Shown piece after piece: positions 23,201 through 54,824 of a stretch of 64,000 nt of DNA. The position numbers were made by a program, and so were the translations under genes. Position 1 is the first letter of the stretch. Each line of letters starts with the position of its first letter. Location of the stretch: contig JBAIAA010001152.1 of assembly GCA_037893245.1 (NCBI GenBank), forward strand, positions 62,001 through 126,000. The letters run 5' to 3'. This stretch comes from Crossaster papposus. Lineage: Eukaryota > Echinodermata > Asteroidea > Velatida > Solasteridae. The notes beneath the pieces were generated by a model, which did no database searches, had not been told where the DNA came from, and saw nothing but the letters and a program-made list of their open reading frames with translations.

Positions 23201-26200
23201 TCTGAGGGAAAAGACTAGGGGTCAAAATTTGAAGTGCCTCCCAATTTATCAATGTTTTGTATGCAATTATCAACATGTGTACCAATTTTGTTCGTGCTTT
23301 TATATCAACAATTGTTTTGCTTTGCCGCTGCACTATTGTCCGGTGTAATTATACTATTGTCCGCGAGTATACAGCGGTTATAACAACAAAGTTGGTGAAG
23401 GGCAAAATCCAATATTGATATTGTATAGATGGAGTTTGCCACAAGAGGAGATATTCAGAACTAAACTCATCACAAAAAGTATCGAGACACTTGATGATCC
23501 AATAATTAACGGCCCAAAAGGGTATGGATTAACCGAAGCAAATAACCCAGTGCATAATTTGTTCTGCGTATTTTGACACCTCGATTGTTTAAATACGATG
23601 TAGCGGAGCGGAGTCATTGTCATTTCAATGGTCGTAGATCCAGTTTTAAAAGTGACAATCATCCCTCTAGAAGCAGGATTGTATTGCTCATGTTGATGTT
23701 AAATGATCAGCCAATAAGATAATATCTACAATGCCCACCTTTTCAAAAGAAGCCTGCATATATTCTACACAACATAATTATTAGTTTTCTTTTAAACGTT
23801 TGGATTGCGACCAAGGTGATGATCCGACACCAAAGTTGTAGAGAGGAAGGTACATAACTCACGATAATATTCTGAACAAATGTCAACAAAGAGCCGCGCG
23901 AATAATCCTTCAGAGGATATGTTTGCTAGCCTTAATTGGGCTCCATTTTATCTAGAAGAGTTAAATCCAAAAAGGCTATTTTCGTCTCCAAACGTATTGA
24001 CAAAATTACTCCTTTGTAGATGACAAATCTTTAAACACTATACATACAGTGATTCGCAAAACAAGGCAACAAACCCACATAGCACTGGCAGTTCCTTTCG
24101 CCCAAAACAAAATGCTACGCCACAAGTTATAACTTTGTTTTCGCCCATCCCGTAAATCAGAATTGGCCTTAAACAGGACTGTTTTAAAAGTTAATTCACA
24201 GACTTACTTAAGTATAAATGTTATGTATTCCTGTAAATATCCTGTATGTACGTCTGTAACAATTGTGTTTGTATAGTATTGTGTAAATGTTGTTGTATTT
24301 CTATGTATTATTGTGAGTTGTGAGTTCAACAGATGTACGGTTCTGTTGATGACTTTTGATGTATTCTTTATCTAATTGTAATGGAAATTAGTTTTTAAAC
24401 TGTTTTGGCACACCCTGGGTAACAAAATGTAATAAATAAATAAATAAATAACAATTTAAACATTTTACTTACAGGTACTCAAGCTGGGAAAGGCCGGTGA
24501 ATGTGCCATTCCGCAAGAACGCGAGATTGTTCAAGTCAAGGTGTCTGTCAATAAACCAGATGAACAGATTGACAACAATATACAGAGCCGCTTGACTTCC
24601 GAATCATTAATCACTAATAAGACAGGTCGGGGTACGAATATTTTTTCCCAAACGTAACTGGCAGATTTCATGAATTATTCAGTAGTTTGGATGAGAAGTT
24701 ATGTTTATTCATCGGAATAAAACATGACGTCACAGCATTGTTGTTATTTAGTTAACTAGTTACACTAAATCACTTTAAAGAACAGCTGTTGTCAAGCTGC
24801 TCTACGTATAGTGGGATGGGCTATGGATCAGAGATCCCTGGTTTGAATCTTGCTGTAGGTTACCTCGTTTTTCCTAGTTAAATGGATATCTTTGGAGTAT
24901 TTTTAATTTAAGGGAAAAAAGTAACCTAGAACCTAAGTGTTGTACACTGGGAAAAACAAAATTCGCGGCCGGGGTCCGCTCGTACGTCCGACGCCTCATA
25001 GGTCCGACAAAATCTCACCCCCACCAAATAAAAGCTCATAGGGCGTCGGACTTTTGAGGCGTAGGAGCTATGAGGCCGAATACTATAATTACGATGCCGC
25101 ATAAATCCGACGCCTGATAATTCCGAAATATCGGACTTATGATGCGTCGGACTTACGATATGGCCCCGTGAGACCGGTAGAATTGTTTTCCCTTAAAATA
25201 AAACAACTTCTACAGTACAAATTCTTGCAGGATATTTAAAAAAACTATATGGACTGATTCGAACCACGTACCTTTTGAACGCTAGTGCTAACCACTATAC
25301 ATTGTACTACGCAAGTTACCTCGAACGGCAATCACTTTTGTTTTGTTCTTTTGTATCCACCAGCTTTAATACAGTCGTGCGTGTTGCGTAATACATTGTG
25401 TTACCGTAATATATTACCGGCATGCTTGTAACGTGGCATTTGGACTTAACAAACCTCGCTTATTAACAACGGTGGGTAGTCGGATCGAGTGTCTGGCGCA
25501 CTGTGTTATGCAACCGTGTCGGTTCTTTAATCCTAGGAGAGCCCGTCGACACCATACCCCAGCCAAGGAAGTAATAACAATTAAAAGAAAACAAGTTGAG
25601 GAGCAAAGTCCCCCGGTGAAGTCTGACCTCCACGTTGTCATTTTGCTACGTCCTTATTCTCTAAAATAATGTAACATATTTAAATAGCATGAGGTAAGCA
25701 TGGAACCAACACGACGCGTCCATAACAGATACCTCCCCCTTGCCCTCCATAAACCGGTTAGCTTCAAGTTTCCAAGCTGACGTTTTAAATAACACTGTCA
25801 AACGTTTGAATAGTTTTTAATTTTGCTGTAAATAGTTGGGCAAATAGGGGAATTATTTGGGGGAAATGTGCTTTTGATGAAATGGATATAGTCGTGCACC
25901 AAATGCACTGACACCCTGTATATACTCACAGTGTTTGCAAACAAGCCATTGGGGAAAACACACCAGGAATAAGATTCGTTATGTTGTTCTCACTCAAAAA
26001 TCTAAAACATAAATTGAACACATTTAATGTAGCAAAACAAATCGTCGATTATATAAACAAGAAGAGGCAATTTGTATGGGATCACCGGCCCGTAGTATTC
26101 TTGTATAACCCTTTCGCTACAATGGGCTCCATTTGGCACCAAAGTTCCACGCTACTTCCTTACCGGGGGCTCCGATCCTTTTAGCACCAATACAAACCCA

Positions 26201-29200
26201 CACTGTAATTGGTTAAAATGTGAATAGCGCCCCCTATTGACAAAAAGTCTTTTTCGCATCTGCGTGGACCGTAGTTTTAAAGCATTTCAAATTAAAGAAT
26301 TATGTGAATATAAATAATTGTTTCTCCGCCCCCACCATTCTTCTCCCTTCCTGATGACCCGTTCATTATGATAACACGACATCTGTGCAGTTGTATAAAC
26401 TACATGCACAAGTAGCTTGTTCGTACAGCTTGGTGAAGCGTTACGCAAACTGATTAATAGTAGGAATCACTTATCCCTCTTTGCTAATAAATTATTGTCA
26501 GCATCCATGAATGAAAACTTGAATATATTAAACAGACGTATTTGAAATAATGAATACTTACAAATGCTTCAAATTGTGTAAACCCCAAAATGCGCCGTAT
26601 TCAATTGTCTCGATGGCATTTTTCTTCAAATTCCTGTAAAGGTGAATAAAAAGTGTACGGCGCGCGAATTCACTGTATGAAAGTATAATAATTGAAGATC
26701 AATAATTGTTAATCTGGAGTGGTTTATAATAGGGAGTTAAAATTGTGATAGTGATTACCTGCGTGTCAAATCTCTCTCGCTTGTCATAATAAAATATAAC
26801 ATGGTTTGAGGGTGGGTAGTCCCTAGTGTGTCAACTTCCAATACTGCATGAGGGAAGCTGATATCCACTACCTACTCGAAATAAACCATTCTATATTTGT
26901 TTTACTCTACCTCATACAAATTCAGTTTTATTGTCAGGAGTTTGGGAAAACGCTGAACAGTTACGTACGCAATGTTCGCGCGTGCGTTCTATTGTACTTC
27001 ACCCCTGTGCTAGTTCTGCGAGTACTTCGTAAAACGCATGCGTAGTAGACTAGCACACCGGTTACCCGTGTGCCATTCTACTACGCATGTGTATTTACCT
27101 TGAACGTAAATACTCGCGTGCGCACTTTGCTAACATTAAAAATAGCAGCTGGTAAGAATGTAGCTCTTGATAATGAATAAGTAGGATATAGTAATATAGT
27201 AATTAGCACTGTCACATTTGGGTCTATGCGTTGTATAGGCTCCTTGGTGATTTTGTGGAGTTATTGAAGAAGCTTACAGTTTACCATCGACGGGAATACA
27301 CTGCAAAAACTGTGGTGTTAAATTGTACACCAATGCTGTAAAATTTGATTATTTCCTGGTGTTTATTTTGAGCAAGGATTTGGGTGTTAAATAACACCAG
27401 CTTGGGAATCAAATTATGTGAACACCAATTTTGGTGTACACCATGATAGCAGAATTTCACGTGGATATCACGTAATTTGCTCGTCATTCTAGAGAAAAGA
27501 TATACTGTTTTAACACAATAATGTTGTACATATTAACAGCATGGACAATTTACGTAATGAAATAATACCAAGAACTTTAAACTTATTACACATTACACAT
27601 CCATACAATAATAACCTATTCCTATTAGATATTACCTACTGAATACGTACTACAAACATAGCCATTGCCGTTAGTTAGTTTTATACCGCGCTTTTTTGTC
27701 CACGACGAAGTAACAGCTAGTTTTTATGAATAATGTCAAATTTGAAAACGAATAAAATGTAACGCGAATTGTTTACTATGTTTGCACACAAAATCAAAAT
27801 TCAATCATGGAATCGTAATTACATATTATGGTAAAAAATGAATTTTTGGACTAAATACAACAATTTAACATCGACTATTGAACACAGAGATATCCCATAA
27901 TTTCTTATCGACCAATCAGAGGGCTTTATTTCACACACGCATGCGCACTAGGTCAAATTTTAAAACCAAAAGTAGGTAACACCAGTACATGATTTGAAAA
28001 TAATACTTCAAGAATCATTTTACTCCATTTTAACACCAATTTTCATTCCAAAAGATTTAAAAAACATTGGTGTTAAAATTTTAACACCACAGTTTTTGCA
28101 GTGTACATGACTCTAATTGATAAAAGCGTGATGTCATGTCAACAAATCACGATTCTCTGCAGCTGCAGTTGCCCTTGTTAATATTACCGACTTTGTTGAA
28201 ATATGCCTTTCAATTCGTAACCACGACATTTAGTATCTTTGTTATTTTGTAAAAAATCTTCACTAGATATCACAAACGGCTGATTGAGAAACGAATACTC
28301 AACATCCATACACTTTACAATGAGACTGAATATCAAGCCAAGCATAACTATGTTTTGGGAAATATGTCTTGCAAAGCCAAAGTGTAATGATTTCAGAATG
28401 AGTTAATGACTTAAAAAGGGTAAATGAGCGTTCATTTTCAGATCTATTTGGCCTTTTTGTTGAAAATATGAGTTTGGTAGAGAATGTTATTATGTAGCCT
28501 GAACCCAGATAGCATGCTGATATTGAGCTAATGTTGGTCCAACATTGGCTGTAAAAAGAAGGCCAGTGTAATGTTTCGCACAGGCATAGGCAAAGCAGAG
28601 TGAAATGCCATCTGTCACCGAATGAAATTATTCTTTTCATCTCACGAATGTGAAACATTCATTAATTGTTGTATACAACGCCTGAATAAATTATCGTCAT
28701 CTGATTGGTAACTTGTAAACTGGTTCTATCAATGCGCGCGCACCGTTTGATAGAACCATGTGATAGAACGTTTTGGGCGGTGCGGGTTCGCGTCGTGTGA
28801 TGGGTCGAATAATTCAATGCACGAGATCGACGATCCACCAATCGGATGGCGGGGATTTATTTAAGTGTTGTGTAAACCCTATTGTTCTCAGAACACACAC
28901 ATTCTAAATTTAACTCGATATTAACTCGATATTAACTCGATATTGGCCCAACATTGGACAAATTGGCCCAATATTTGCCAATGTGCGACAACCTAAAACC
29001 AATACTGGACCAACGTTTAGTGCTAGCTGTGTATTAATTTATAATGTTGGGTAATCAAAGCAGTATTGTTAGGACAACATAAGCTGTCATAATACACGTA
29101 GTGACATTTTATCAATATCATTTTTCTCAATGGCATCTTAGGGTTCATCCACTACACTGAGTCAAACCATCCAAGGACCAATAGTTTAGTTGAGAAAAAG

Positions 29201-32200
29201 GCAGGACTGGAAATGATTATACCCATAAGACTTGGTGCACACACAAAGTATATGTTCTGGGTACGAACTACTCTGTCATATATTGTTTGATGTTCTATGC
29301 AGCTAATTTAGGTTAGTTACATCTGAGGTAAAGCCATTTTCTCTGGACTTAGTATATCTACGAACCTCTGCAATTAAGGAATCCATAACTGACTGTATTG
29401 TCAGGGTTTTTCATTAAAAACTCGTTTGGCATTGAGAGTACAGGGAAGCAGTAACAATGACAATTGCAGTAGGATTTCATGAGTACTTATTGATTGCACA
29501 GACATTAACTAAAGCGTAGAACCATTGTGTGGCCGAGTTGAACGTTGGCGGTATGTAATACCAATCGCCAAAAATAACAAGGGACCGATGTTGGTTTCAA
29601 TTTGTTGTCGGCCAGCATTAGAAAACGCAACACTAATGTACAATGTTGACCAAATGTTAATTAGAAAAGTGGGTCAGCCCCTAATTAATATTGAGGCAAC
29701 TGTAATATTTGGCTAACAATGAGCTAACTTTAACAATGGGTCAACAAGATGCCAATGAGCAAAATTATACAGGCCCAACATTGACAACTACCTTTAGCCT
29801 AACACTACTTTTTGGGTGACACATCATTGGAAGAAGGTTATACCTAATTAATCTTGGCTTACGTCCGACACCCAGGATTGGCTTAGTATTTGTATCCTAC
29901 ATTTGAACGACACGGCGATTACTCCATATTTCCCAACATTGGTCAGCTCTGTCTAACCAATATGGTATAACTGTTGGCTTGCGATCTACAACCAATATTG
30001 GTTTAGTATTCGTATCCTACAGTTGGCAAAATGACAACTGCCAAATGTTCCCTAAGGCATAACAAAGAAAATGTTATGTTGGCGTAACCCGACCGACCCT
30101 AAAAATACGGCCGACCCTGGATATTGTTTGCTTCAAGGAACGAAATTTAATGATTAAAATCTATATAAATCTAGTTATCAATACGTTTGAAACCATTTCT
30201 GACCGTTTCTCATTGTTGTGTGTGTGGATTGTGTATATATTGAACCTAGACACGCTATCGTGTATCACTACCGGCTTAAACAATTATAAAACATATCATT
30301 TGCATTGCTGGGAGGGGGGAAAAAAGAAAACAAATCCCTACCTACCTACCCTATTTTTGGGGGGCCCGTTACGCCAACATAACATTTTTGTTGTATGCCT
30401 AACATTGGACCACGTTTTTGAAACAACATGGCGTCAATGTCGGCTCACAACCTTCAGCCAATGTTGGTTTAGTATTCGCATCTAGCTTTTGAACTACGTG
30501 ACGACTGTATACATGTGTCCAACGCTGGCCATTGTAAACCACCAACCTTAAACCAACACTGCCGATGAATTTTCGACATTCGCCCAATCAGAAACCAACA
30601 TTGACCCAATTTCAAGCATGCTATCTGGCAAGTTTATCAAATTTATATTCATTTGCACTTTCTCCACTTTTTAAAAGTAAAACACAACTGCTTACATGTA
30701 CTTACATTCTCTTATAAATGTATTCATATTACTTCTTAGGAATGACAACATTGTTTCTGATGTTGTTAATTAGTCAAGTTAATGATTAACCACACACACA
30801 ATGACACAACGTATGCAAGCAACAGCGAGGAAATAATGTCTCTTGTTTAGAACTATGGGCTGAGGGTTGATTTGTTATTTACTCCAAAAGAACAACAACA
30901 AACATGATTTATGTAGATTGTTGAAAATCTTACACGGCATGTTAACAGCAAATAATGTTTCTTGTGATGGCCCTGTCACACTAGAACGTTTTAGGCCAAC
31001 GCGTGAGTAGCGCGTTAAAAATAGTTGATACGCTGGCAAACGCTGAACTTCCACAGAAAAAGTCAAGTGGAACCGTGATTTCAGCGTGTCAATAACGCGT
31101 TGTTAACGGGTTCAATGCGTTCGCCAGCGCGTGAGAAACGCGTTAGTAACGCGCTCGACGACTGATGAACGACTGCCCAGCGCGTGAGTAGCGCGTTCCA
31201 ACGCGCGCCAGCGTACTGCAACGACCACATGGTTAGTTGTATAAAAAGCCGACGCGCTACTACACTAATGGCCCTGTCACACCAGAACGTTTTAGACCAA
31301 CGTGTTGGAATTTCGGTAACACGCGGGTAAACGTTGACAAACGCTAGGCTAGCGTTTGCAACTCGCTAAGCGCGTTACCCACACGCTGGAACACGCTGTC
31401 ACACGCTGAGGCAAAAATACATTTTTCAACATACCTAAAATTTTCAGCGTTTGCCAGCGTGTGCCTGCACACGCTGGCGGCGCGCAGGGTGGTCGTTAAT
31501 CATGCGTCGAACGCGCTAGACGATCGTTACTAACCCACTCTCACACGCTGGCGACCCGCTGTCGTATTTTTACTATAAATCAGTGATACGTTCCTCACAC
31601 GCTGAGCGCGTTCCTCACACGATACTCACGAGCTGGCATACGCTATGAACCCGTTATCAACCTGTATAGACACGCTGAAATCACGGTTCCACTTGACTTT
31701 TTCTGTGAAAGTTCAGCGATTGCCAGCGTATCAACTATTTTTAACGCGCTGTACTCATGCATTGGCCTAAAACGTTCTGGGGTGACAGGGCCATAACCAG
31801 CGTGTCGCCAGAGTACGCCAGCGTACGCCAGCGTGCGCCAGTGTGTGAGTAGCGGGTTGATAACGATCGTCTAGCGTGTTCGACGCGTGAGTAACAAACC
31901 TCCAACGCTCCGCCAGCGTGTACAATCACACGCTGGCAAACGCTGGAAATTGTATGTATGTTTAACAAAATATGTTTTCCTCAGCGTGTGACAGCATGTC
32001 TCAGCGCGTGAGTAACGCGCTCAGCGTGTTGCTAACGCTGGCCTAGCGTTGGTCAGCGTTTGCCAGCGTGTTGCCAAAATTACAACACGTTACTCACGCG
32101 TTGGCCTAAAATGGTCTGGTGTGACAGGGCCATGAGAAGGGACATAATGTATTCATGTATTAAATTCAAAATTGCACATGTATTAAATTTAACATTACAT

Positions 32201-38200: not shown

Positions 38201-40482
38201 TTGAGAGTATACGAAATTAACTCCCTATGGCGTTTGCAAATTTCTATTGAAATTGAAGTATTCAGGACTGTACTGTTGTATCAACATTTTAATCGTAAAT
38301 ATTTATTTGAAAAATAGTTCCCAACAACGTGGAATAAAATATTTTGACGGATGATGTCAAGCAGTCTTGTTCTCTTAAAAAATTTAGAAAAAAACCTCAA
38401 ACTTAACTTGCTCAATGATTATAACAAATTAATTCATGTATTATTTGGTCTGATATACTGGAAGTGTAATTGTTTGTTGTAGTTCATGTATATTGTACAT
38501 AGTTTATGTGTCAAGGGTTAGGGGGTGAGGGTGGGGTGAGGGGGTGAGGGTGGGGTGAGGGGGTGGGGGGGGGGGGGGTGGTAGGGAAAGGAACAAAAGC
38601 TTCGGCTTCTTTTTTTCCCTCAATGTTGACACGTTTTGGTTCTACACTTAGTTTTAACTGTCATAGTATTGTTTAATTATTTGTATTGATATTGTGTGTT
38701 TATTTGTAATGATTTGTTGTTGTTGCCAACATTGAAATGCGTGTGTGAATAAACTTGAAACGGTACAGGCACTAAAGGTTTTCGGATTTATGTTTACACC
38801 TCCAGGGTCTCCACTTAAGCAAAATAATGAGCGCCTTCACTTAAGTCCAACCAAACAGTAGATGTTTATGATACGAGATCTTCTTGTCTATTGGCACGTT
38901 CATATAAACTTAACAAGAGCGAACAAGAATATTACGGCATCCTAGCTCGTCGCCACCACCAGGACATTCTGTCTTCCCATCACACACCGCGCTGATGTTG
39001 ACGCATGCGTTATCGGTTGCGCACAGAGTCCGACCTACGCAGGAACCGTCATCCGGAATTTCTTTTGGGAAAAGTGGACAAAATGAGACAGTAAGGATTA
39101 GTATACAATAACAATATAACATCCAATAATACATAAGATGTTTAGGTTGATCTGCAGTCTGTTGTTGCTTTTGCGTGCACGTTGTTCTAGAACAACTGCT
39201 TTCCATGGGGGCCTTTCCGCCCTGCATACATTAATCAACTATTATTGGGCGACCAATGAAAGTTCTATTCACCGTTAAACGTTTGCAGGCCCCTAGAGTG
39301 TTTTTATGTCCGACATTTATTTAGGAGCAAACGGAGGGGAGGGGGGGGGGGAGGAGGGTAGGGTGGTTCCGAAGGAACGCTCTATTATGGGGTTCCGGGG
39401 CCTGCCCCAAACACTTTTAGAATCTATAATGCTTCGGCATGCACTATAAGGTCATTTGAAAATATATTTAAGAGCTCGAAGCATGGAGTTAGACAGCCCA
39501 GCATCAAAAGACCAATGATCGCCACCGCCAGCGATTGTACCACTGCACAGGTGCTAAAATAATAATGAAGCAAATTCGAATTATGCGCCGCTCGTGGGCC
39601 GAGATGAACGCTAAGAAAAACGTTAGTGTGGTGTTCTAAAACGGACAGGCAGCGTCGTGGTTCAACTTTCAAAACGTCGGACTTCAACTTTCAAAACGTC
39701 GTGGTTCAACTTAAAAAACGTCTCGGTTCCACTTTTAAAACGTAGTACTTCAATTTTTTTCAAAACTTTGGTGGCCCTGAAGGGACATCACACATCGCAG
39801 ATTTCTGCGATTTTGCAGATTTTATTGCACATTTCTGCGCAGGTTTCTGCGATATGGCACATTGTATCGCAGATTCTGCGCAGATTTCTGCGAAATTGAA
39901 GAGTGTATCTCACATTTCTGTACAGATTTTTGTCAACATTGAAATGTGTTTAGCATTCGAATGTCGAATAATGTTCTGGTTACTTATTGAATATTGAACA
40001 AGGAGCGAGGAACGAGCAACCTCCTTATAGTACAGTAAGTTCAAAATTGAACCAGTTCCTATATGAAAACAAATTCAACTAAAATTTACAAACAGAGGAA
40101 TAAAATGTCCAATCTTACATGTTGGTGTGATGGTTTTGGCAAAAATCAACCATACCATACAAGGCCCATACGCAAGGGGGGTGGGGGGGGGGGGGGGGGG
40201 TGCGACGGGTGCGTACGCAGCTATTATGGTTTGCAAGCGGCTATTATATGAACTACTGCATAATTGCTATATAACATGTACTATCTGATTAAGCATAATT
40301 AGTGTGGCTTAAAAGTAATGTAACATACGATTGTGGACAGACATCCAATAACTTACGGCAGAAGAATTCATCATCCCCGGTAGAGCAGTCTTTGGTTCCG
40401 TCACAGACAAGACTGGACCGGATGCATTGCCTTACCTGCCCCATGCAGTGGTAGCTGCCAACCGTACAGGGGACGCTAGCTG
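19059..40482 (-). CDS. LDLa + LRR + 7TM receptor (LGR type C, GRL101/relaxin-receptor-like), 5' incomplete
   Basis: Thirteen exons in order on the minus strand: 40482-40357 and 39061-38936 (LDLa), 38138-38030 (LRR N-cap), 36875-36783, 35339-35268, 34780-34709, 34562-34491, 32353-32282, 26633-26562, 24544-24473, 22884-22813, 22065-21994 (one LRR each), 20250-19059 (hinge, 7TM, tail). Every intron shows GT..AG and phases agree: 1-1 for LDLa, 2-2 for LRR exons. The product should be a plasma-membrane receptor with a large extracellular ligand-binding domain coupling to G proteins. Vertebrate RXFP1/2 have one LDLa; two or more modules fit the invertebrate GRL101-like subgroup. The signal peptide and any further LDLa exons were not found between 40.5 kb and the fossil retroelement at 43.2 kb. 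The 5.6-kb gap at 26.6-32.3 kb holds only transposons. Confidence 0.9.
20723..21332. repeat. Inverted-repeat element in the receptor's last intron
   Basis: Arms 20723-20865 and 21215-21332 pair over GCTAAACTATACATTTTTGG, AACATGAAAACCAATGTTTA and flanking parts. The loop repeats TTTAAGCCATATCTCA.CAAC and TGACATCATGA words also seen near 20620, 20680 and 21755. Confidence 0.7.
21994..36875 (-). CDS. Nine single-LRR exons of the receptor
   Basis: Eight exons are exactly 72 bp (24 residues) and the first is 93 bp. Each starts one base into a codon and ends two bases into one, so any could be skipped without a frame change. Translations in order: SLSVKDSIHLNFEEFKQLK; TLVQIGIGHLDEDSFPSLKY; LIYNNLISTIKPRSFQDMVA; YLSQNALTDLAVDVFVGLRS; HLDDNVLKTLPANAFLPLRS; NLKKNAIETIEYGAFWGLHN; HLDLNNLAFLRNGTFTGLSQ; DLSENPITMIEKGAFSDLSR; VLMAAEISDLEPEMFVGLES (each truncated here). 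They fit LxxLxLxxNxIxxLxxxxFxGLxxL. The exon 22813-22884 uses GTATAT six bases before a stronger GTAAGT; the LRR register supports GTATAT. The array forms the curved ligand-binding solenoid. Confidence 0.92.
22515..22790. repeat. Direct repeat, two units about 185 bp apart
   Basis: AAGCGACTATCGAAAA.AGTACG, GGTTGGTGTA.AA and GGCGGCACGTCGCAG recur in order at 22525-22595 and 22725-22790. It lies in the receptor intron. Confidence 0.55.
23462..23735. repeat. MITE copy, end word CTCATCACAAAAAGTATCGA
   Basis: About 75% alike by eye to the complement of 37067-37402: TCATTTCAATGGTCGTAGAT, CTCCGCTCC and CAATAATTAACGG words are shared. The right terminus appears decayed here. Confidence 0.65.
23800..24450 (+). 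mobile_element. Degenerate 3' end of a non-LTR retrotransposon (LINE)
   Basis: Broken frames resemble the C-terminal end of a LINE ORF2, e.g. QQRAARIILQRI, then LIGLHF, and further on a Pro/Lys-rich tail, followed by a long T/G-rich 3' UTR ending in AATAAATAAATAAATAAATA near 24430-24452. 5' truncated, with several frame breaks. The clade (CR1, L2 or Jockey-like) cannot be decided. Confidence 0.55.
24970..25168. repeat. Short element built of GTCCGACGCCTCAT words
   Basis: Ends CGGGGTCC and GGCCCCG are near-complementary. Between them the word TCCGACGCCT.AT occurs several times in both orientations. Confidence 0.55.
27299..28103. mobile_element. 805-bp CACTA-like MITE
   Basis: TIRs CACTGCAAAAACTGTGGTG and its complement, flanked by TA on both sides. 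Subterminal ACACCA/TGGTGT words are frequent. CACTG ends with a 2-bp duplication suggest the CACTA/EnSpm group. No transposase. Confidence 0.75.
28505..30628. mobile_element. 2.1-kb TIR element filled with CCAACATTGG words
   Basis: Ends CCAGATAGCATGCT and AGCATGCTATCTGG. The interior repeats AACATTGG, CAATGTTG and CCAATATTGG dozens of times on both strands, densest near each end (28530-29030 and 29580-30600). A second MITE sits at 30070-30386. It occupies the largest receptor intron. Confidence 0.7.
30070..30386. mobile_element. 317-bp nested MITE
   Basis: TIRs ATGTTATGTTGGCGTAAC and complement, with subterminal CGACCGACCCTAAAAATA. Inserted in the 28505-30628 element. Confidence 0.7.
30968..32132. 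mobile_element. Outer copy of a TGGCCCTGTCACAC element
   Basis: Ends TGGCCCTGTCACAC and its complement, flanked by TGA on both sides (30965-30967, 32133-32135). Arms are arrays of GCGTGAGTAACGCG and CACACGCTGGC-type words. An inverted copy of the same element is inserted at its middle. Confidence 0.8.
31269..31793. mobile_element. Inner, inverted copy of the same element
   Basis: Identical terminal words, flanked by TAA on both sides. Its left half pairs with 31797-32132 and its right half with 30968-31268, as expected of an opposite-orientation copy inserted at the centre of the outer one. Confidence 0.8.
32410..32715 (+). repeat. Minisatellite, about 24-bp unit TTGTGGTTTATGCTGGATCT
   Basis: Degenerate units TATGTTGTGGTTTATGCTGG repeat some twelve times. 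Related arrays follow at 33150-33320 and 33845-34245. Confidence 0.8.
33150..33320 (+). repeat. Same minisatellite, second block
   Basis: About seven units of the GTTGTGGTTTA.GCTGGATCT type. Confidence 0.7.
33321..33710 (-). repeat. Dispersed repeat splitting the minisatellite
   Basis: Begins with an AATAATAATAAT run and TTGTATTTATTTTGCGCAG, then carries CACGGTCACCCATAG, CTTGGAGCAGCTTGTGCGAA and AGATCATGAATAGCCTTG. The order resembles a widespread invertebrate interspersed repeat. The family is not certain. Confidence 0.5.
33845..34245 (+). repeat. Same minisatellite, third block
   Basis: About fourteen diverged units, ending where the unit decays to TATTGTAATTAATGCTG. Confidence 0.75.
36045..36072. 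repeat. Perfect 12-bp-arm hairpin
   Basis: GCTGTTCCCGAT, four bases, ATCGGGAACAGC. In a receptor intron; function unknown. Confidence 0.6.
37067..37402. mobile_element. 336-bp MITE with two intact ends
   Basis: Starts TAAACTCATCACAAAAAGTA and ends with its complement. Inverted relative to the copy at 23462-23735. Both sit in introns of the same receptor gene. Confidence 0.75.
38030..38138 (-). CDS. Receptor exon: LRR N-terminal cap
   Basis: 109 bp, phase 1 in and phase 2 out. Encodes EPCPFQCRCGGYNLFCSSV with the cap pattern CxxxCxCxxxxxxC, then WDEASASWVSRDTVNL leading to the first repeat. Confidence 0.9.
38515..38582 (+). repeat. G-rich minisatellite GGGGTGAGGGT
   Basis: Repeated GGGTGAGGGTGGGGTGAGGG ending in a run of G. 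Four or more G-runs fit a quadruplex on the plus strand, that is the non-template side of the receptor gene's antisense. Confidence 0.7.
38936..39061 (-). CDS. Receptor exon: LDL-receptor class A module 2
   Basis: 126 bp, phase 1-1. Encodes GSCVGRTLCATDNACVNISA and VCDGKTECPGGGDELGC: six cysteines and the calcium-binding acidic end (D..ECP.G.DE). An N-glycosylation site, NIS, is present. Confidence 0.93.
39655..39925. repeat. Solo arm with GGTGGCCCTGAAGGGAC end and CAGATTTCTGCG array
   Basis: 39655-39745 repeats GGTTCAACTTTCAAAACGTC. At 39768 the terminus GGTGGCCCTGAAGGGAC begins an array of CGCAGATTTCTGCG-type words to about 39925. The same terminus starts the 53507-54824 foldback, but the array word differs. 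Confidence 0.6.
40357..40482 (-). CDS. Receptor exon: LDL-receptor class A module 1 (first seen)
   Basis: 126 bp, phase 1-1. Encodes PCTVGSYHCMGQVRQCIRSS and LVCDGTKDCSTGDDEFFC, with six cysteines and the DGTKDCSTGDDE calcium site. The phase-1 start implies another exon upstream. Confidence 0.93.
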
Positions 40483-41906: not shown

Positions 41907-41942
<36 letters not shown>

Positions 41943-42985: not shown

Positions 42986-43369
42986 GCTATATTTGTTGAC
43001 ATATGTTTTAATTTTAGCCTGGCAATCCACACAAAAAAACCTTACGACCGTTTCGGATTTTCGTTCTTATCAGATCTCCTTGATCGATCGTTTGTTTTTC
43101 ATTGTGTATTTGCGTGAAAACAAAAAAACGATGCAAACATTTACTATACTGACACCCGATGGGTCCACATGCATTTTGGATTTTCTGGAGTGAGAGGTAA
43201 ATATACATTTTCTATCGTGAGCGATAGAGCGTGACGAATATTAGCATATTACGCAAGAGTGTGTTGGTGCAGTGCACACAGTCTGGGTGTGGCAGTCATT
43301 GATCGTTTTCAGCACAGCTACAACGGACGTTACAAATACACAGCTCTCTGCGGCCACGCATACTACAAT

Positions 43370-44148
43370 GTTGAACGACGACGACGACGTTCAGCGATCA
43401 GATTCTAATATGCAAAGTGCACAAGATTCTCATCGGTTATCATCCTTAACCGCCAAGGATGTCTCCAAAATAGTAACGGCAGGAGTTACAGAGGCCCTCG
43501 GCTCCTTCCAGTCACGTTTTGACAGGATCATAGCAGAACGTAAACAAGAAAACGAGAAAGCGTTGCAGCAAGTCCAGTCATTGAAACGAGCCAGTGAGTT
43601 GCAATTTCGTTTCAAGGGTAACCGTACCCAGTTCCAGTTCAATGACAAGATTACTCTAACTGTTGAAACTGTTAAAAAATTAGTCGAGGAGGGTTCCTTG
43701 ACAGCAGCAAAGGAAAACCTTGTGGAGGTAGAGAAGGAATTGCGCAAGAGAAACAAGCTTATCCGCCTTGCCGACAAATCTGAGGCGGGTTGGGCTGCAG
43801 TAGACGAATACGTCAGCGATGAATTGGCAGATGACTCGGATGACGAAAAGCGCATCAGATCGGCTCAATCCCGAGCCATGGCAAAACGTAAGAGAGCTAA
43901 AACCCCATACCACCCCAAGTCGGTTCAACAGAAAAAGCAGCAGGTATCAGAGTCGCCTGCTAATCCAGATAGTCTTTTTCGGCATTATGGTAGCCAGTAT
44001 AGATCAGCATCTTGCGCACCATACAGCACAAGCTTCAGAGCAGCTCCACGATCCACTGACATCTGCTTTAAGTGCGGCAAAACAGGCCATTGGAGAAAGG
44101 ACTGTACCGGCACGCACGGTATCGGAAGCAAAGACATCAGTCACAGAT
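43370..44148 (+). pseudogene. Gag-like part of the fossil DIRS element
   Basis: The region has a Gln/Lys-rich coiled segment and a single zinc knuckle near its end (CFKCGKTGHWRKDC), as in gag proteins of DIRS and other retroelements. Confidence 0.8.
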
Positions 44149-44464
44149 AGAGTGGTGGAAGGTCAAGGGAGTTCAAGTCAAGGCATCGAGGCAGAGTACG
44201 ATAAGTTTTACTCAGATAACTATTATGACTATGAACAAGGGTCAGCAGAACCAATAGTGAAAGGACGTTTGAAGTCCTGCATAACCTTTTGGGAGAATAT
44301 TCAAGCCTATCAAGAGGTGTTGGACATTATCCGTACCGGGTATAACATTCCATTCATAAATACCCCTCCAGTGTCGTATTCCAAGAATAATCATTCTGCC
44401 ATTGTTCATTCCGCATTTGTGTCGGAAGCCATAACAGAGCTAAAAGCTAAAAACCTGATATATG

Positions 44465-46782: not shown

Positions 46783-48710
46783 TGAGTTTGATTCTCCTCC
46801 ACATGTCATAAACCCGTTAACTGTTTCGGTCCAAAATTCCGGAAAGAAAAGGCTAATTCTGGATCTCAGATACGTCAATCAATTTGTTTGGAAAGAGAAA
46901 ATTAAATTTGAAGACTGGAATGAAGCTTTGCGATATTTCAAAAAAGGTGATTTTATGTTCTCGTTTGATTTGAAAACGAGCTATCACCACGTTGAGATTT
47001 TCCCTGAACATATCAAATACTTGGGATTTGCTTGGGAAGTACAAAGTAGTACCAGATATTTTGCGTTTAACGTATTACCATTTGGCTTAACTACAGCCCC
47101 TTACATTTTTACTAAGATGATCAGACCACTAGTAGCCTCTTGGAGAAGGAGAGGTATTTACATAGTAGTATATCTAGACGATGGATGGGGAAGAGAGGAT
47201 ACAAGAGATAAGTGCGACAACACGGCACAAGTTGTAAAAGCTGACTTAATCGCCGCAGGGCTTGTTCCTAATAAGGAAAAATCCGTATGGTCACCAACGC
47301 AGAAAATCAACTGGTTGGGGTTAACATGGAATGCCGTGGAAGGTTCTATTCAAGCAACGGAACTTAGAGTAACGAATCCGGCCTGGGCCAATATGTGGAT
47401 TGGGTTTTCAGTCCCTGCCTGACTCCGTGGGTTTTTCCCCAGGATATTCTTCTGGGGTTTTCCTCCCACCTCTAAAACTGTAACTTCTTCACATTAATTG
47501 TTAAATGAAATAAAAAATTGTTGAATGAAATTTGTTCCCGCCGTGAATATGGCCATTGATGCTGGTACGGCGTTAAACCCTAAATACTCACTCACTCACT
47601 AGAGTAACGAATACTGTGTTATCAATCGAGAAATTGTTCCTAAACATGCCAAAAGTAACTGCTAGAAAGTTGGCATCTATTGCAGGTAAAATAATATCTT
47701 TTTCTTGCGTTGTGGGGAACATTTCACAACTCAAATCTCGTTATCTACATATGGAGATCGCTAATAACAAGAACTGGGATTACGAGTTCTCCTTAGATAG
47801 CAGTAGTAAAGCAATCGAAGAATTGTTTTTCTGGAAATCAGAGTTGCCTACTCTTAATAACCGTTTACTGTTTGATTATTCCCTCCCACAGATTCTGCTT
47901 TATACTGATGCAAGCCAGTCGGGTTGCGGCGCATGGACGATTGGTTCACAGAAATGTGAATTTCAACAGAATTGGTCAAACGTCGAGAGAGGCAAAAGTT
48001 CCACATGGCGTGAGTTAAAAGGGGCATCCCTTGCAATCAAAGCATTCGCTTCAACCCTCAGGGGTAAATTGGTGATTTTACGCACAGACAATAAAGGAGT
48101 AGTTTCAATAGTTACTAAAGGAAGCATGGTTCCAGAATTGCAAGAATTGAGTGTAGATCTGTTCTTTTTCTGTAACCGCAACAAAATTAGCATGAAAGCT
48201 GAATGGATCCCCCGTCATGAAAATGTAGAAGCAGATCGTCTTAGTAGACAAGACGATTTAGACGATTGGGGTGTGTCCCGAACGTTTTTTAATTTTATAG
48301 ATGACTTGTGGGGCCCACATTCAGTGGATAGGTTTGCTAACGAAGATAATGCAAAACTACCACAATTTAATTCAAAGTATTGGAGCCCCAATTCGGCTCA
48401 TGTTGACGCTTTTACCGTAGATTGGAGTAAAGACAACAATTGGCTAGTACCGCCAATAGATTCAATTTGCAGTGTTCTTCAACACATTAAAGAATGCAAA
48501 GCTAAAGGCACATTAGTGGTCCCTGAATGGCCGTCTGCGGCATTTTGGCCGCTGTTGAATTCCACTTCTAGTCCTTACCGGGGATTAGTTGTCGAAACGG
48601 TGAGGTTCAGTAACTCAGAGAACATTTTCAAAAAAGGAAAAAATCCTAACTCTGTTTTTGGTACCAACAGAATGACAAGCCCAGTCTTATGCATCAGCTT
48701 GCAGGGATAA
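46783..48710 (+). pseudogene. RT/RNase H part of the fossil DIRS element
   Basis: RT blocks include RLILDLRYVN, FSFDLKTSYHH and the catalytic VVYLDDG; the RNase H part shows LLYTDASQSGCGAW and LRTDNKGVV. A SINE-like copy interrupts it at 47378-47600. Confidence 0.9.
47378..47600 (+). mobile_element. SINE-like insertion with 12-bp target duplication
   Basis: Flanked by AGAGTAACGAAT at 47366-47377 and 47601-47612. Contains GGGGTTTTCCTCCCACC and ends CGGCGTTAAACCC..CTCACTCACTCACT, a tail type known from other marine invertebrate SINEs and LINEs. Confidence 0.85.
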
Positions 48711-48982
48711 AACAAGGTCGATGACAATAATAATTGTTACCGCACGGGTGGTAGAACAGAACGGCCGCATGGCTTACGAGAGTAATAATTCCGCTTGGTA
48801 GCTCTCGTTGAGGTCGCTGGATATTGTTACGAATTAATCATGAATAAAAGCATATCCCCTTGCCGCTTGGTGGAGTTAAATCAATACCGGGGTATTGATT
48901 TAATTGCTAGGAATGCTGGTCTGAACGAAAGACCATCTTTGTGCTGTTTAGCAAATAATTGGGGAATTCGTCATTTTAATCA

Positions 48983-49969
48983 GTGCTTTTCGTGTGGCTT
49001 TTGTTTTTCAGAACTGACAAACATATATTCTCATTACAAAAAGTGTTGAAAGCATCGAGAGCAACAGGAACGACAGAAATATATCAAAGGCGTTTTGCTG
49101 ATTGGATAGCCTGGTGTAAAGCGCATAATGCTACGGTGCTCCCAGCCAATTCAGAGGATTTAGCAAGATTCTTTATAGAATTACTAAACGAAAATGCACC
49201 CTTCTCAAGAATACAAGAAATATTTTACAGTGTCAAATGGTTCCATGATTGCAGTCCAAACATAACAGAAAATCCATGTGACAAGAAGTTCCTACACTTG
49301 GTCTTAGAAGGGATAAAGCGGATGACCGCAAAACCTGTTTCCAAGAAGGAACCTGTGACGGTAGAACTTCTTAGAAAAATTGTTATCAAGTTTGGATTAA
49401 CAGATAATCTAATGCATGTTCGTCTCTGTACAATGTGTCTACTTTCATTTGCTGGTTTCTTAAGAAACAACGAGCTCATAAACATCCGAGAATGCGACTT
49501 AGACATTCATTCATCCTTCATTATAATATTTTTGCTCAAAAGCAAGACTGATCAATACAAGGAGGGTTCCTGGATTCACATTGCTAAGACTGGAACCATC
49601 ACATGCCCCGTGCAAATGTTGCTAAATTACATTGAGTTCGCGAAGATTACATCTTTTACCGAACAATTCTTATTTCGACCAGTTGTGTATATTAAATCAT
49701 CTCAGAATTACAGATTACGTAAAGGGCAGCTTTCCTACTCCAGATGTAGAGAGATATTCAAGGAGGCTTTGAAAGAGGTCGGGGCTGACCCGAAAAGGTT
49801 TGGCCTACACAGCCTACGCGCTGGCGGGGCAACGGCAGCTGCCTCTGCAGGTGTGCCAGACAGGTTGTTCAAGAAACATGGCAGATGGCAGTCTGAGCAG
49901 TCGAAAGATGGGTATGTTCATGAATCCTTGAAGAATCAGCTAAGTGTATCGCTAAACTTAGGTTTATAA
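48983..49969 (+). pseudogene. Tyrosine recombinase part of the fossil DIRS element
   Basis: Similar in length to DIRS-type recombinases and long open. Its C-terminal half has HSLRAGGATAAA, KKHGRWQS and GYVH, the H-x-x-R...H/W...Y pattern of the family. This enzyme, rather than a DDE integrase, integrates DIRS elements. Confidence 0.9.
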
Positions 49970-50049
49970 GTGTCAAACATCATGATAAATGTTGTATAAC
50001 GTTGTATTTATACGAACAGTACAAAATTAGTACTACTTAATTGTTAGCA

Positions 50050-50975
50050 TAATAATAATACTAACTAGGCGGTCACCCGGGGTTTGTCGGTTCTCGGGTT
50101 TGTAGCTACTTCCCTGGATGGATGGGGATTGTGGATACATGTTGACCGAGTTTAAGCACGATCCGACCAACTTCAAAAAGGTGACCCCTGACCTTTGACC
50201 TCGTACGCTCTAGCGAATGCAAACTGGTTCTTGCGGGGACCGAGCCGGACCCACCCACCGAGTTTGAACGCCGCACGACCCCGGGAAGGGGACGAAAAAG
50301 CGCGCACAGACAGACACACAGACAGACAGACAGAGAGTATAGGACAAACTTTGAAAATTCGACCCTTAGACGACCTTTGACCCCGGAAGACCCGAAAAAC
50401 GCTAACCCGTTTTATTTTTGCCACGCTCACCTCGCATCGAGCATTGCGATCACCGAGTTTAAGCACGATCCGACCAACTTCAAAAAGGTGACCCCTGACC
50501 TTTGACCTCGTACGCTCTAGCGAATGCAAACTGGTTCTTGCGGGGACCGAGCCGGACCCACCCACCGAGTTTGAACGCCGCACGACCCCGGGAAGGGGAC
50601 GAAAAAGCGCGCACAGACAGACAGACACACAGACAGACAGACAGTATAGGACAAACTTTGAAAATTCGACCCTTAGACGACCTTTGACCCCGGAAGACCC
50701 GAAAAACGCTAACCCGTTTTATTTTTGCCACGCTCACCTCGCATCGAGCATTGCGATCACCGAGTTTAAGCACGATCCGACCAACTTCAAAAAGGTGACC
50801 CCTAGATGACCTTTGACCTCGTACGCTCTAGCGAATGCAAACTGGTTCTTGCGGGGACCGAGCCGGACCCACCCACCGAGTTTGAACGCCGCACGACCCC
50901 GGGAAGGGGACGAAAAAGCGCGCACAGACAGACACACAGACAGAGAGTAGCGTATTATTATATAGATAAATAATG
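50050..50975 (+). mobile_element. Repeat insertion with a triplicated 310-bp body and (CAGA)n tail
   Basis: Head CTAACTAGGCGGTCACCCGG. Three near-identical units start at about 50148, 50455 and 50762 with GAGTTTAAGCACGATCCGAC and contain TGACCTTTGACCTCG, CCCCGGGAAGGGGACG and CAGACAGACA. The end is TATTATTATATAGATA. The tail resembles RTE-type LINE or related SINE 3' ends. It lies between the recombinase and B1 of the DIRS fossil. Confidence 0.7.
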
Positions 50976-51042
50976 GAAAATAAGCAGTGAGAAAAAGTGC
51001 TACTTGTGACCCTCCCGTTCTTTGTTGCTTGAGGAGGCGGAC

Positions 51043-51676
51043 CTGTCGCTGTCCGCCTGTAGCTCGTCGCCGAAGAACGATGTTACCCATATCGGTGCAT
51101 TAACATGTTCTTTCTTTGCAGGTCAAGGGGGGGGGGCGGGGCGAGGAAAGCCGGTTCGCGAGATAGAAAATAATTTATTCGCGGTTGAGCCGCGAATTAG
51201 CGAATAATATACATTTTCTATCGTGAGCGATAGAGCGTGACGAATATTAGCATATTACGCAAGAGTGTGTTGGTGCAGTGCACACAGTCTGGGTGTGGCA
51301 GTCATTGATCGTTTTCAGCACAGCTACAACGGACGTTAAAAATAAATTGTAAGAGATCAGGTCTAATCCGACAGGGTTGGCTTACACATCAGCGAGGGAT
51401 GGACGTGTTAACGCAGCTGAATACCTTGGACATGACAAGGCAATTGGCAACCAGCCGCTGATCTTCAACGGCGTCTTCCAGCTGCACACCGATTCTACTG
51501 TAATTCACTGTCGCTGTCCGCCTGTAGCTCGTCGCCGAAGAACGATGTTACCCATATCGGTGCATTAACATGTTCTTTCTTTGCAGGTCAAGGGGGGGGG
51601 GGGCGGGGCGAGGAAAGCCGGTTCGCGAGATAGAAAATAATTTATTCGCGGTTGAGCCGCGAATTAGCGAATAATT
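51043..51676 (+). repeat. B1-A2-B2 terminal block of the DIRS fossil
   Basis: B1 (51043-51206) and B2 (51508-51676) share CTGTCGCTGTCCGCCTGTAG through GAATTAGCGAATAAT, including a poly-G run. A2 (51207-51344) repeats A1 from the left end. The 51345-51507 spacer is unique. Confidence 0.9.
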
Positions 51677-52145
51677 ATACATTTATATGGTGGTAACAAT
51701 TTTACAAAGGCCTTTTCCAAGGGTGGTTTTCTTGAGAAATCAATGTAATTCTTTTTTTTACTTTGACTTTTACTCACTTATTTTGTTATTTGAAGGTTCC
51801 AAAAGAGCGCGACCAGACGTCAACTTTCTGGCTCTATTCAACCTGCTTCATCCTTTCATAGTTTCAATGTTTATATTTAAAAATGTATTTTAAAATATTT
51901 TTTTTTGTTATAATTATTTGAATGGCTATGTTTTGTGTAAATGTTTTCTTCTTCTACAAAACATTGATGGAAAACAGCCTGTGCTGATTTTTTTGTATTT
52001 TTTTTAAAAATATTTTAATACATAAATAAATAAACAAATTCTACATAACTAATTAAATAAACAAATGCTAATTCATTGGATTAATTCTAAACCAGACGCG
52101 GGGTAGACTTCAAATAAAAAGTCTTTGGAATCACTGGAATAAAAT

Positions 52146-52815
52146 CGTCACCGTTTTCACGAAGAGGCGAATTTAGCCTTTCACGGTCTGAACAAACTTT
52201 CGAGAAAATCGCTTGTAAAGTTGGTCCTTTTTTCGTTTGGCAGTTCGAAACATAAAGATCCATAGAATATACAAGATTAAGGTATCATGGGAAAGAAGAG
52301 ATTCCAATCTTCTTAAATATAGCAAACGTTGAGAAAAATAGGTGATTAGTTTTGCACAATTAATCAATTAATAGAATTGCCTCTTCGTGAAAACGAAAAA
52401 GATATAAATTAGCAAATTCGCCCGTGGCTGTGAGAGTCAGAATGTATACATTTTCCCATTGCGCCCCAAATTCGCCTCTTCGTGAAAACGCTGAAAGCCA
52501 GTACGAGCCAAATTCGCCCAATTCGCCTCTTCGTGAATACGCTAAAGTCAATACACGCACCAAAACGCCCCTTCATGAACACGTTGAAGTCAACGCTATT
52601 TTAAATTCGCCTCTTCGTGAAAACGCAAAACGACACTTGAGGACCAATTCGCCCATTTGTTAATTAGGTTAATGGGGATTTTAAAGATTTTTTTGGATGT
52701 ATAACTTCACCAGGTTGTAGAAATTGCAATATTTAATCGTTTTCATTAAAATAATTAATATCGATAAATAGACGATTTGTTTAATGAAATTCGCCCCTCC
52801 GTAAAAACGGTAACG
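52146..52815. mobile_element. 670-bp element with TTCGCCTCTTCGTGAAAACG array
   Basis: Ends CGTCACCGTTTTCACG and the diverged complement at 52798-52815, flanked by AAAT on both sides. About seven copies of the 20-bp word, most in direct orientation between 52378 and 52650. Confidence 0.7.
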
Positions 52816-52873
52816 AAATGTGTGTACTTATACTGTGCTGTGTTTGGTTTTTGCACCCGTATCAAACAAGGTA

Positions 52874-53106
52874 CACTCTAGAAACTGCTGGGTCAGAATT
52901 GACCCTGTAACGCATCTGAGTCTGCACGATTCTTTTTACATGTTAAAAAGGACATTTGGGAGGTCAGAATTAACTAGAAAAAAAGTCAATTTGACTCTGA
53001 AAAGTGCCATTTTCGACCAAACAAATTGTCATTTTCAACCCGGAAAATGAATCGTGCAGATTCGGATGCGTTTCGGGGTCAATCTGATCCAGGATTTTGT
53101 AGAGTT
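52874..53106. mobile_element. 233-bp CACTCTAGAAA MITE
   Basis: TIRs CACTCTAGAAA and near-complement, flanked by TA. Subterminal GGGTCAGAATTGACCC palindromes. Confidence 0.75.
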
Positions 53107-53506
53107 TAGGATACACCGTTTGCACCGCTAAACATTATGGACACAATCGAGACAAAGGGGCTGAATAGTTTTCCAATTCCATGGGTTAGGTTGTCTCCAC
53201 AAGAAATTGTATGTACAAAGTTTATGGGGTATAACTACAGGGAGAGAGGGGAGAACAATACCATTTCTCCACAGGGCTGCAAACATTGTGATCTTATATA
53301 CCGTACCCTGTGGAGACATTAACACAATATATGGACAATAGGACTGAATACGTAATTTCCGTAGGGGAATTTATAAAGGTGAATATAGGTCTCCACAAGG
53401 ATTTCACTACATAGATATTATGGATTTTACTCAAAAACCAAGGTTAGTGTTTGGTTAGGATAAGGGTTAGGGTATGGTATATATTGGTCCAAATTTCAGG
53501 TTAGTA

Positions 53507-54824
53507 TGGTGGCCCTGGAGCTAGGGACACGCATACTGACGTCAATATTCGCGACAAATTTCACAACTTTCCCCAAAGTCGCAAATATTGACGTCAATAT
53601 TTACGTCAAATTTTACGATTTTCCCCAAAAGTCCCGAATATTGACGTCAAATTTGACGTCGATTTTCGCGTCAAATCTCACGACTTTTCCCGAATGTCGT
53701 GAATATTGACGTCAATATTGACGTCAAATTTTGCGACTTGCCCCCAAAGTCGCGAATATTGACGTCAAATTTCACGTCAAATGTTACGACCGGAAATAAA
53801 TTTTGACGCGAATTTTTTCCCAGCAAGCTAGGTTTTGGCTGGTCTTGCTCCAAGACCGAGTTTTTCATTTGTCCGGGGCGCGCCTTTGCAGTTCACCAAT
53901 CATCCATACTCCGGAAACGGGCTTATTGAGGGCGCCCTCGATTTTCACGTTAGATCAGTGGATTTGTTTCAAGTTCAGAAAAAAAATTCGTGAACTGAAC
54001 TTTAAGGTAGGATACACCATTTGCAGATATTGAAAATATTTACTACCGAATTTTTAAGAAATATCTTATAATTCTAATATCTTATCTTTTTGAAAGTAAA
54101 TTATAATTCTAGGCATCCAGCAAAATGATCGCGGTAGATATTCTGTAATTATTCCAAACGGCGATCGCGAAAAAACAATAATAACATAAGAATATTCAAC
54201 TGCCCGACGGCAGTTGAAAACAAACGCAGTTTTTCGTGATTTTCTCGCCATCCATAATTGTAAACCTTAATTTGGACAGGTCAGTTAAACGAGATTAACT
54301 ATAAAATACAACCCCAAAAATTCCCCCATTCATGATAATTTAAGCAATTACCAATGGTGTATCATACCTTTAAAACAAATCCACTCGTCCCTCATGACAA
54401 TCGAGGGCGCCATCAATAAGCCCGTTTTCGGAGTATTGAATATTGATGAACTGCATAGACTAGACGGACGGCGCGCCCCAACTTGGTCTTGAAGCAAGAC
54501 TAGCCAAAACCTAGCTTGCTGGAAAAAATTATGTCAGGTCGTGAAATTTGACGTAAATATTCGCGACTTTGGGGGCAAGTCACAAAATTTAACGTCAATA
54601 TTGACGTCAATATTCACGACTTTAGGGGAAAGTCGTGAATTTGTTAAGGCAAGTCGTTAATTTTGTCGCAAATATTGACGTCAATATTCGCAACTTTCGG
54701 GGAAAGTCGTGAAATTTGACGCGAATATCGACTTCAAATTTTACGTCAATATTCGCGACTTTTGGGAAAATCGTGAATATTGACGTTAATATTCACGATG
54801 TGTGTAGTCCCTTCAGGGCCACCA
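53507..54824. mobile_element. 1.3-kb foldback element with TGACGTCA arrays
   Basis: Ends TGGTGGCCCTG and CAGGGCCACCA, flanked by TA. Outer arms (about 53530-53815 and 54535-54800) are tandem ATTGACGTCAATATT and CGCGACTTT.CCCC words. Inner arms (CAGCAAGCTAGGTTTTGGCT, GGGCGCCCTCGAT, CAGTGGATTTGTT) also pair. A TTAA-type MITE occupies the apex. Confidence 0.8.
54005..54369. mobile_element. 365-bp TTAA-type MITE at the foldback apex
   Basis: TIRs AGGTAGGATACACCATT and diverged complement, with TTTA left and TTAA right. Same family as 17268-17410 but with a longer interior. Confidence 0.75.

Follow-up and report, generated by a model that had tools for sequence, protein, structure and literature searches.

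Word arrays with a recurrent helical spacing in the arms of inverted-repeat elements of Crossaster papposus: candidate binding sites in non-autonomous DNA transposons

We analysed a 64,000-nucleotide stretch of the Crossaster papposus genome (G000:C1151:62001-126000, contig JBAIAA010001152.1; hereafter the window), in an assembly of 1.02 Gb and 1,841 contigs, where inverted-repeat elements have arms made of arrays of short words. One terminus stands before several different arrays, target-site duplications (TSDs) accompany it in three of five array classes, the words of most arms are phased with the helical repeat, and the arrays are retained in copies. We favour, at about even chances, the reading that these are helically phased subterminal arrays of putative binding sites in non-autonomous DNA transposons of at least three end types, the word being specific to the family and the spacing convergent. 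What is new here is the number of words found on one terminus in apparently IS3EU-like elements, together with a helical pitch common to different end types.

The word arrays reported by a first-pass annotation of the window were all present, within the arms of inverted-repeat elements, and every count was far above that in 200 dinucleotide-preserving shuffles of the same stretch. The 24.97 kb element held 5 words (at most 2 mismatches) against a shuffle mean of 0.01, the 28.5 kb element 10 (at most 1) against 0.28, the 31.0 kb element 16 (at most 3) against 0.43, the 52.1 kb element 6 (at most 4) against 0, the 53.5 kb element 25 (at most 2) against 0.07, the 39.77 kb arm 4 (at most 3) against 0.05 and the 8.75/11.85 kb arms 8 (at most 2) against 0.12, and the remaining window held 0-5 comparable matches per word. 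That each family has its own word was likewise borne out. The description of the words as mostly palindromic is right for CCAACATTGG, CGCAGATTTCTGCG and the TGACGTCA core, right in part for CATTTTCAAAATGG, and wrong for TCCGACGCCTCAT, GCGTGAGTAACGCG and TTCGCCTCTTCGTGAAAACG as written.

The elements had also been taken as unrelated, with differing termini. This is not so for the 53.5 kb element and the 39.77 kb arm, which both begin GGTGGCCCTG and share the 17-mer terminus GGTGGCCCTGAAGGGAC. The 39.77 kb arm has this 17-mer without mismatch; of the two ends of the 53.5 kb element, the right one is exact and the left one differs at 4 positions. The features of this group in the window are as follows (here and below, strand is given where one is assigned).

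53508..54823, the 53.5 kb putative IS3EU-like non-autonomous element, with arms of ATATTGACGTCAATATT and TCGCGACTTTCCCC words; the TAT and ATA flanks belong to the ends
53526..53800, plus strand, left arm array of the 53.5 kb element, with GACGTC spacings of 52, 53, 12, 53, 12 and 41 bp
54540..54800, minus strand, right arm array of the 53.5 kb element, an inverted copy of the left array
39770..39925, plus strand, the 39.77 kb solo arm, an exact GGTGGCCCTGAAGGGAC with a CGCAGATTTCTGCG-type array behind it (class f4)

Genome-wide, GGTGGCCCTGAAGGGAC occurs in 2,539 exact copies (1,263 + 1,276), and the reversed-pattern control gave 0. Sorting 82 termini (79 from genome loci and three window stretches) by the word behind them showed at least five different arrays behind GGTGGCCCTGAAGGGAC: 45 termini had TGACGTCA, 11 ACGACATCAC, 6 GCAAATAT, 10 TTTCTGCG (the class of the 39.77 kb arm) and 1 GTCGTGAA, the fifth array being known from this one sorted terminus, and 9 had no array or a degenerate one. 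These proportions are not those of the genome, because the termini were sampled among the matches listed, 100 per genome search in contig order, because the rarer '..ACAT' termini (360 matches genome-wide) were targeted in part of the sampling, and because not all termini are independent, some being paired ends of a single element or copies of a single insertion. By eye, six of the nine unsorted termini (L034, L058, L141, L144, L143, L148) hold truncated or degenerate forms of the listed words, those of L143 and L148 being of the GTCGTGAA kind, and no array was seen behind the other termini, L048 and L146 (one family) and L142. A core word shared among the arrays was not found: not one six-mer ranked among the top 25 in at least three families. 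This six-mer test also gave no support to a common core GAC[AG]TC for all five arrays, noticed by eye, and when applied to 42-nt units it found 2, where the null mean was 0.24 (p = 0.047).

Within the 53.5 kb family, 4-22 TGACGTCA words were present at 30 of 30 loci (the best 30 of 40 scored, made up of the window copy and 29 relatives). From its collinearity, contig C79 is most probably the second haplotype of the window: of 20 stretches sampled, 13 match the window collinearly, 11 of these at 95-100% identity and the other two at 93% and 89%, while 2 match repeats only and 5 are without a match. The 53.5 kb element is present in C79 minus its left part, and an exact 19-mer terminus lies at 113648 in the interval corresponding to the 39.77 kb arm, which in the window has TTT, not TAT, before the terminus. 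C79 also lacks about 11.6 kb of the window, in the interval from 42.1 to 53.7 kb. At L035, L037 and L049, TGACGTCA elements of 196 bp and 143 bp lie inside a palindromic flank, ACGCATACAT..ATGTATGCGT, a context that recurs at many loci and probably reflects a single insertion that a larger element carries along.

The flanks of 37 full elements of this group read TAT/ATA in 28 cases, TAT/ATG in 6, CAT/ATT in 2 and TAA/ATA in 1. Directly outside TAT..ATA (offset 3), a 6-bp duplication was exact in 13 of 35 flank pairs, a set in which the window 53.5 kb element is counted twice and two loci enter with both of their alternative right ends, and 4 more pairs matched at 5 of 6 positions; at this length the other offsets gave at most one exact pair. 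Simple sequence (ATATAT, TGTGTG) makes up some of the exact pairs. Three classes have the duplication, TGACGTCA (L004, L006), ACGACATCAC (L131, L058) and GCAAATAT (L134), and the window copy matches at 4 of 6 positions. Elements of the Galileo/P superfamily have a 7-8-bp target duplication; this superfamily was rejected for the 53.5 kb group, with 0 of 35 pairs exact at length 7 at all offsets tried and at most one per offset at length 8. ISL2EU elements duplicate AT within the target A|AT|T (available text of PMC4482050), and AT stood on both sides in 36 of the 37 full elements; membership in ISL2EU was rejected, since AT is part of the end and the 6-bp TSD lies outside TAT..ATA. That duplication is of the size usual for IS3EU, which has TA..TA termini (PMC10045372, in the part available), and the ends of the group, TATGG..CCATA, match the TAYGG..CCRTA of fungal IS3EU (PMC12730594, likewise in part). 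For both reasons the group fits, by its ends and duplications, IS3EU-like non-autonomous elements, with the difference that internal phased word arrays are unmentioned in the available portions of the published IS3EU descriptions.

The spacing of the words is the second line of evidence. Spacings in the ACGACATCAC class are mostly 20, 22 or 21 bp, and the distance from the first to the last exact word is 294 bp in L130 (14 x 21, counting two degenerate units) and 317 bp in L131 (15 x 21 + 2). In the GCAAATAT class, 42, 30, 61 and 54 bp separate the GATGTC words; the TTTCTGCG class has spacings of 12, 42, 30, 43 and 29 bp, and the TGACGTCA class mostly 12, 41, 52 and 53 bp. At 10.5 bp the phase coherence (R) of the core words was 0.79 for TGACGTCA and 0.86, 0.90, 0.90 and 0.90 for ACGACATCAC, GCAAATAT, TTTCTGCG and GTCGTGAA, in order, compared with 0.32-0.42 for jittered spacings. 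A stricter null, in which each distinct interval was jittered once per class, gave p = 0.0215, 0.0005, 0.0045, 0.0035 and 0.012 in the same class order, the last class consisting of one arm only. In a scan that used no motif, the best periods of the four classes other than TGACGTCA were 10.60, 10.35, 10.55 and 10.50 bp, those of three 31.0 kb arms 10.65, 10.55 and 10.65 bp, that of the 52.1 kb element 10.50 bp and that of the left arm of the 28.5 kb element 10.35 bp, indicating that a best period of 10.35-10.65 bp is common to all of these.

Against a null in which random shifts of at most 5 bp broke the phase, the 10.5-bp signal was higher in 14 of 17 element rows (p <= 0.006; the row for all 31.0 kb arms overlaps three others), and in the left arm of the 53.5 kb element the power was 0.52 against a null of 0.04. 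The same test was exceeded by 1 of 4 control rows, the 7.26 kb array. Best periods of seven control rows were 10.40 and 10.20 bp (the 7.26 and 6.89 kb arrays, which are of one kind), 11.30, 11.50, 13.50, 11.25 and 8.55 bp, and the 23- and 14-bp satellites in the window showed no phasing. Among 16 background arrays of at least 110 bp, three proved to be of the 52.1 kb type by their words and were phased, the 7.26 kb array was phased, L039 was weakly so and 11 were unphased. In this small control set, phasing is frequent in arms and uncommon but present elsewhere. In the literature searched, which left out most subscription journals, no report of helical phasing in transposon ends was found.

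The claim that the elements are unrelated stands for the 52.1 and 31.0 kb elements, which are of other types than the 53.5 kb group: the former has 4-bp ANNT duplications and the latter TNA flanks. Their features are as follows.

52146..52815, the 52.1 kb element, with ends CGTCACCGTTTTCACGAAGAGGC; its word is internal copies of its own end
52142..52145, left TSD of the 52.1 kb element, AAAT
52816..52819, right TSD of the 52.1 kb element, AAAT
30969..32131, the 31.0 kb composite element, with ends (T)GGCCCTGTCACAC and a second pair of termini at 31270 and 31792
30967..30968, the AT bordering the 31.0 kb element on the left, where the flank reads TGA-T
32132..32133, the AT bordering the 31.0 kb element on the right, where the flank reads A-TGA

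In the 52.1 kb element the array word is, by eye, not separate from the terminus, being an internal repetition of the inverted end. Nine copies (the window and L097-L104) align end to end by eye, with the number and place of the array kept in 9 of 9 and ANNT duplications (AAAT, ATAT, AATT, ATTT, ATGT) in 8 of 9; L097 has a broken right end, and the last base of L100 is altered. The termini of the 31.0 kb element are interleaved in the order left A (30969), left B (31270), right A (31792) and right B (32131). Simple nesting would give another order; the element is a composite of two interleaved copies, amplified as a single unit, and the pair of termini 301 bp apart recurs among the listed termini. 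Its terminus, a 15-mer with AT, has 4,766 copies in the genome (reversed control, 0), and 39 other copies match nearly end to end at 94-100% identity (40 scored of 2,070 candidates).

For 17 insertions of the 31.0 kb element (16 genome loci and the window copy), of which the L167/L168 pair was unreadable and was dropped, the left flank is TNA in 16 of 16, the right flank in 15 of 16, and both sides are identical in 9 of 16. C79 lacks the element, its site reading CTTGTGAGAAGG where the window reads CTTGTGAT..ATGAGAAGG; this empty allele, as read, fits a duplication of TGA, and it is the only usable empty site, as two other candidates, in repeats, proved rearranged. The duplication may be either TNA or AT. 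In its TNA flanks and its TGG start the element resembles PHIS (PIF/Harbinger, ISL2EU, NuwaII), with the difference that TNA is equal on both sides only in the 9 of 16 readable insertions. The interval of C79 at about 94000-154000 lacks both the 31.0 kb element and an element nested in the 28.5 kb element.

The remaining elements with arrays are the following.

28505..30628, the 28.5 kb element, with ends CCAGATAGCATGCT and a CCAACATTGG-type word array
24970..25168, the 24.97 kb element, with ends CGGGGTCCG and a TCCGACGCCTCAT array at 16-bp spacing, present in both haplotypes
8765..12420, the 8.75/11.85 kb arms, with CATTTTCAAAATGG words; edges approximate, by eye

Relatives of the 24.97 and 28.5 kb elements hold similar words; TSDs of the two were sought and could not be placed, and a spaced-word pattern for the 28.5 kb element had 0 genome matches. 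The nested element, of about 350 bp (about 30053-30402), is absent from C79, and the place of the 28.5 kb left arm is occupied there by a 307-bp repeat with a 143-bp subunit. This repeat is found at 50145-50944 of the window and at L105:52-1151, and by eye again in L015, which suggests a dispersed satellite. By eye, the segment 10600-11620, which separates the 8.75 and 11.85 kb arms, has the appearance of coding sequence.

Full-length relatives keep their arrays in the 53.5 kb family (30 of 30 loci), in the 52.1 kb family (9 of 9 copies) and in the 31.0 kb family (39 copies near full length), and in these copies neither array loss nor free, satellite-like variation was seen. Within families, copy number is not conserved, since it varies among relatives of the 53.5 kb element and in the 21-bp family, and spacing mostly is, in that it stays in phase. 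The proposal of the first-pass annotation, a convergent design giving each family a candidate protein-binding array, stands and is now better founded than it was, because each family has its own word, relatives keep their arrays and at least three end types share the design; the underlying observation was real and in part mis-described.

Among known systems, Galileo of the P superfamily and other foldback-like elements also combine a short conserved terminus with family-specific, repetitive long arms; the THAP domain of the Galileo transposase binds sites in those arms, within the repeats and outside the conserved terminus of about 40 bp (PMC3688188, available text), and its multiple binding sites have been described as a seemingly convergent trait (PMC3573991, available text). 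Galileo differs in its superfamily and TSD, in its longer repeat units, about 210 bp in one subfamily (PMC3573991, same portion), and in that three sites are mapped per arm in the accounts available, as against dense, helically spaced words here. In the coral CMITEs, families of miniature inverted-repeat transposable elements (MITEs) likewise compared for terminus and interior, the pattern is reversed, the interiors being more conserved than the termini (PMC2872659, in the part available), whereas here the terminus is conserved and the interiors differ.

Arrays bound by multimers are the best reading, because dense words lie beside the cutting site, mostly on one helical face, and are kept in copies. 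The short terminus would be the generic part, cut by a transposase supplied in trans, and the 6-bp, TNA and ANNT target flanks would reflect three different transposases. The array may offer consecutive sites to a DNA-binding domain, either of the transposase or of a partner protein, and spacing by whole turns would put the bound proteins on one face of the DNA for joint assembly. Between families the word would drift along with the binding domain, while the geometry of protein assembly, and thereby selection on phasing, would hold the spacing.

DDE_Tnp_4 and YqaJ genes of the ISL2EU type are abundant in the genome (at least 150 scored matches each), and L129 encodes a THAP + HTH_Tnp_4 + DDE_Tnp_4 protein and a YqaJ protein; the latter (L129:3238-5406, minus strand) also matches Peptidase_C48 (Ulp1 protease). 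The two autonomous PHIS lineages whose ends could be placed by eye, L129 and L081+L126, have ends that differ from those of the studied elements and lack arrays. A partner with GGTGGCCC or GGCCCTG ends was not found in the DDE/YqaJ regions fetched (L081-L084, L128-L129; flanks L126-L127): none of L081-L084 contains GGTGGCCC, and GGTGGCC is missing from the four stretches read for it. No coding relative of the 31.0 kb element was identified, GGCCCTG occurring once in the six DDE/YqaJ regions read (L083 position 6905, minus strand), and no inward-facing terminus was seen by eye within 10 kb of the listed DDE/YqaJ places (150 each; first 100 of 2,539 and of 360 termini).

Several results weigh against the binding-array reading. 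Six DDE_Tnp_4/YqaJ loci (L081-L084, L128, L129) are without the studied ends in the stretches read, where ends could be placed in two elements only, and no transposase with TATGGTGGCCCTGAAGGGAC ends was found, with no search aimed at an IS3EU transposase. The TTTCTGCG class is tied to the group by its terminus only, its single full element, L133, matching at 3 of 6 TSD positions, and the GTCGTGAA class, of which no full element was read, is also joined by terminus only. The TGACGTCA class has a best period of 13.20 bp, which fits better than 10.5 bp; the right arm of the 28.5 kb element has 12.10, the 24.97 kb element 12.70 and the 39.65 kb array 11.15 bp. Unphased by the jitter test are the 24.97 kb element with its 16-bp spacing (p = 0.862), the 22-bp array at 39.65 kb (0.184) and L154, a relative of the 28.5 kb element (0.216). 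The 21-bp array at 6894-7548, outside any identified element, is phased at the 10.40 and 10.20 bp given above, and for this reason phasing alone is not proof of binding. The control set is small, and arms within a family are not independent tests, because the copies share descent.

Ordinary tandem-repeat expansion in hairpin-prone, foldback-like arms, through slippage or template switching, could yield units of about 21 and 42 bp without selection, and we regard this as possible, if rather improbable. It would account for the variation in copy number (4-22 TGACGTCA per locus, and also between copies of the 21-bp family), for the equal phasing of the 21-bp array outside the elements and for the drifting spacings of L147 (20, 22, 20, 22, 22, 22, 22 and 23 bp), and Galileo arms, too, expand and contract through tandem repeats (PMC3573991, as far as available). 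It does not readily explain why 20 and 22 bp alternate and partly compensate over the 294 bp of L130 and the 317 bp of L131, why the 31.0 and 52.1 kb elements are phased though their words are not simple head-to-tail repeats, or why phasing is missing from the 23-, 14- and 15-bp repeats of these sequences.

Two further explanations concern what the arrays would do. Host transcription factors, for example of the CREB/ATF type on TGACGTCA, which is the palindromic cAMP-response element, might recruit the elements to open chromatin or drive their transcription. The 4-22 copies at all 30 loci of the 53.5 kb family suit this idea, which we nevertheless consider unlikely: most of the remaining array words are not known to us as established host motifs, other arrays follow the same terminus without TGACGTCA, and the 52.1 kb word is the element's own end. 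Phased A/T tracts might alternatively form intrinsically bent DNA that brings the ends together with no need of a sequence-specific protein, as the T-runs between words in the 21-bp family and the AAATTT/AATATT tracts in TGACGTCA arms could suggest; with the 31.0 kb element phased on G+C-rich words (CCAGCG, ACGCG), and with words preserved as words beyond the tracts alone, this seems very unlikely.

It is a long-standing question why repetitive subterminal regions persist in MITEs and foldback-like elements. A single terminus with five or more arrays and a largely kept spacing is a natural experiment that separates word, spacing and terminus, and the 10.5-bp coherence in the arms is a signature that can be scanned for in any genome without a motif. 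Beyond the binding-array reading, we offer tentatively, as a doubtful generalization, that a transposon end may consist of two separately evolving parts, a fixed cutting site common to many families and a family-specific, replaceable word address with fixed helical spacing, which would have arisen in at least three superfamilies within a single genome as a general grammar of end recognition. If this is true, families could escape cross-mobilisation or silencing by swapping words while the scaffold is kept.

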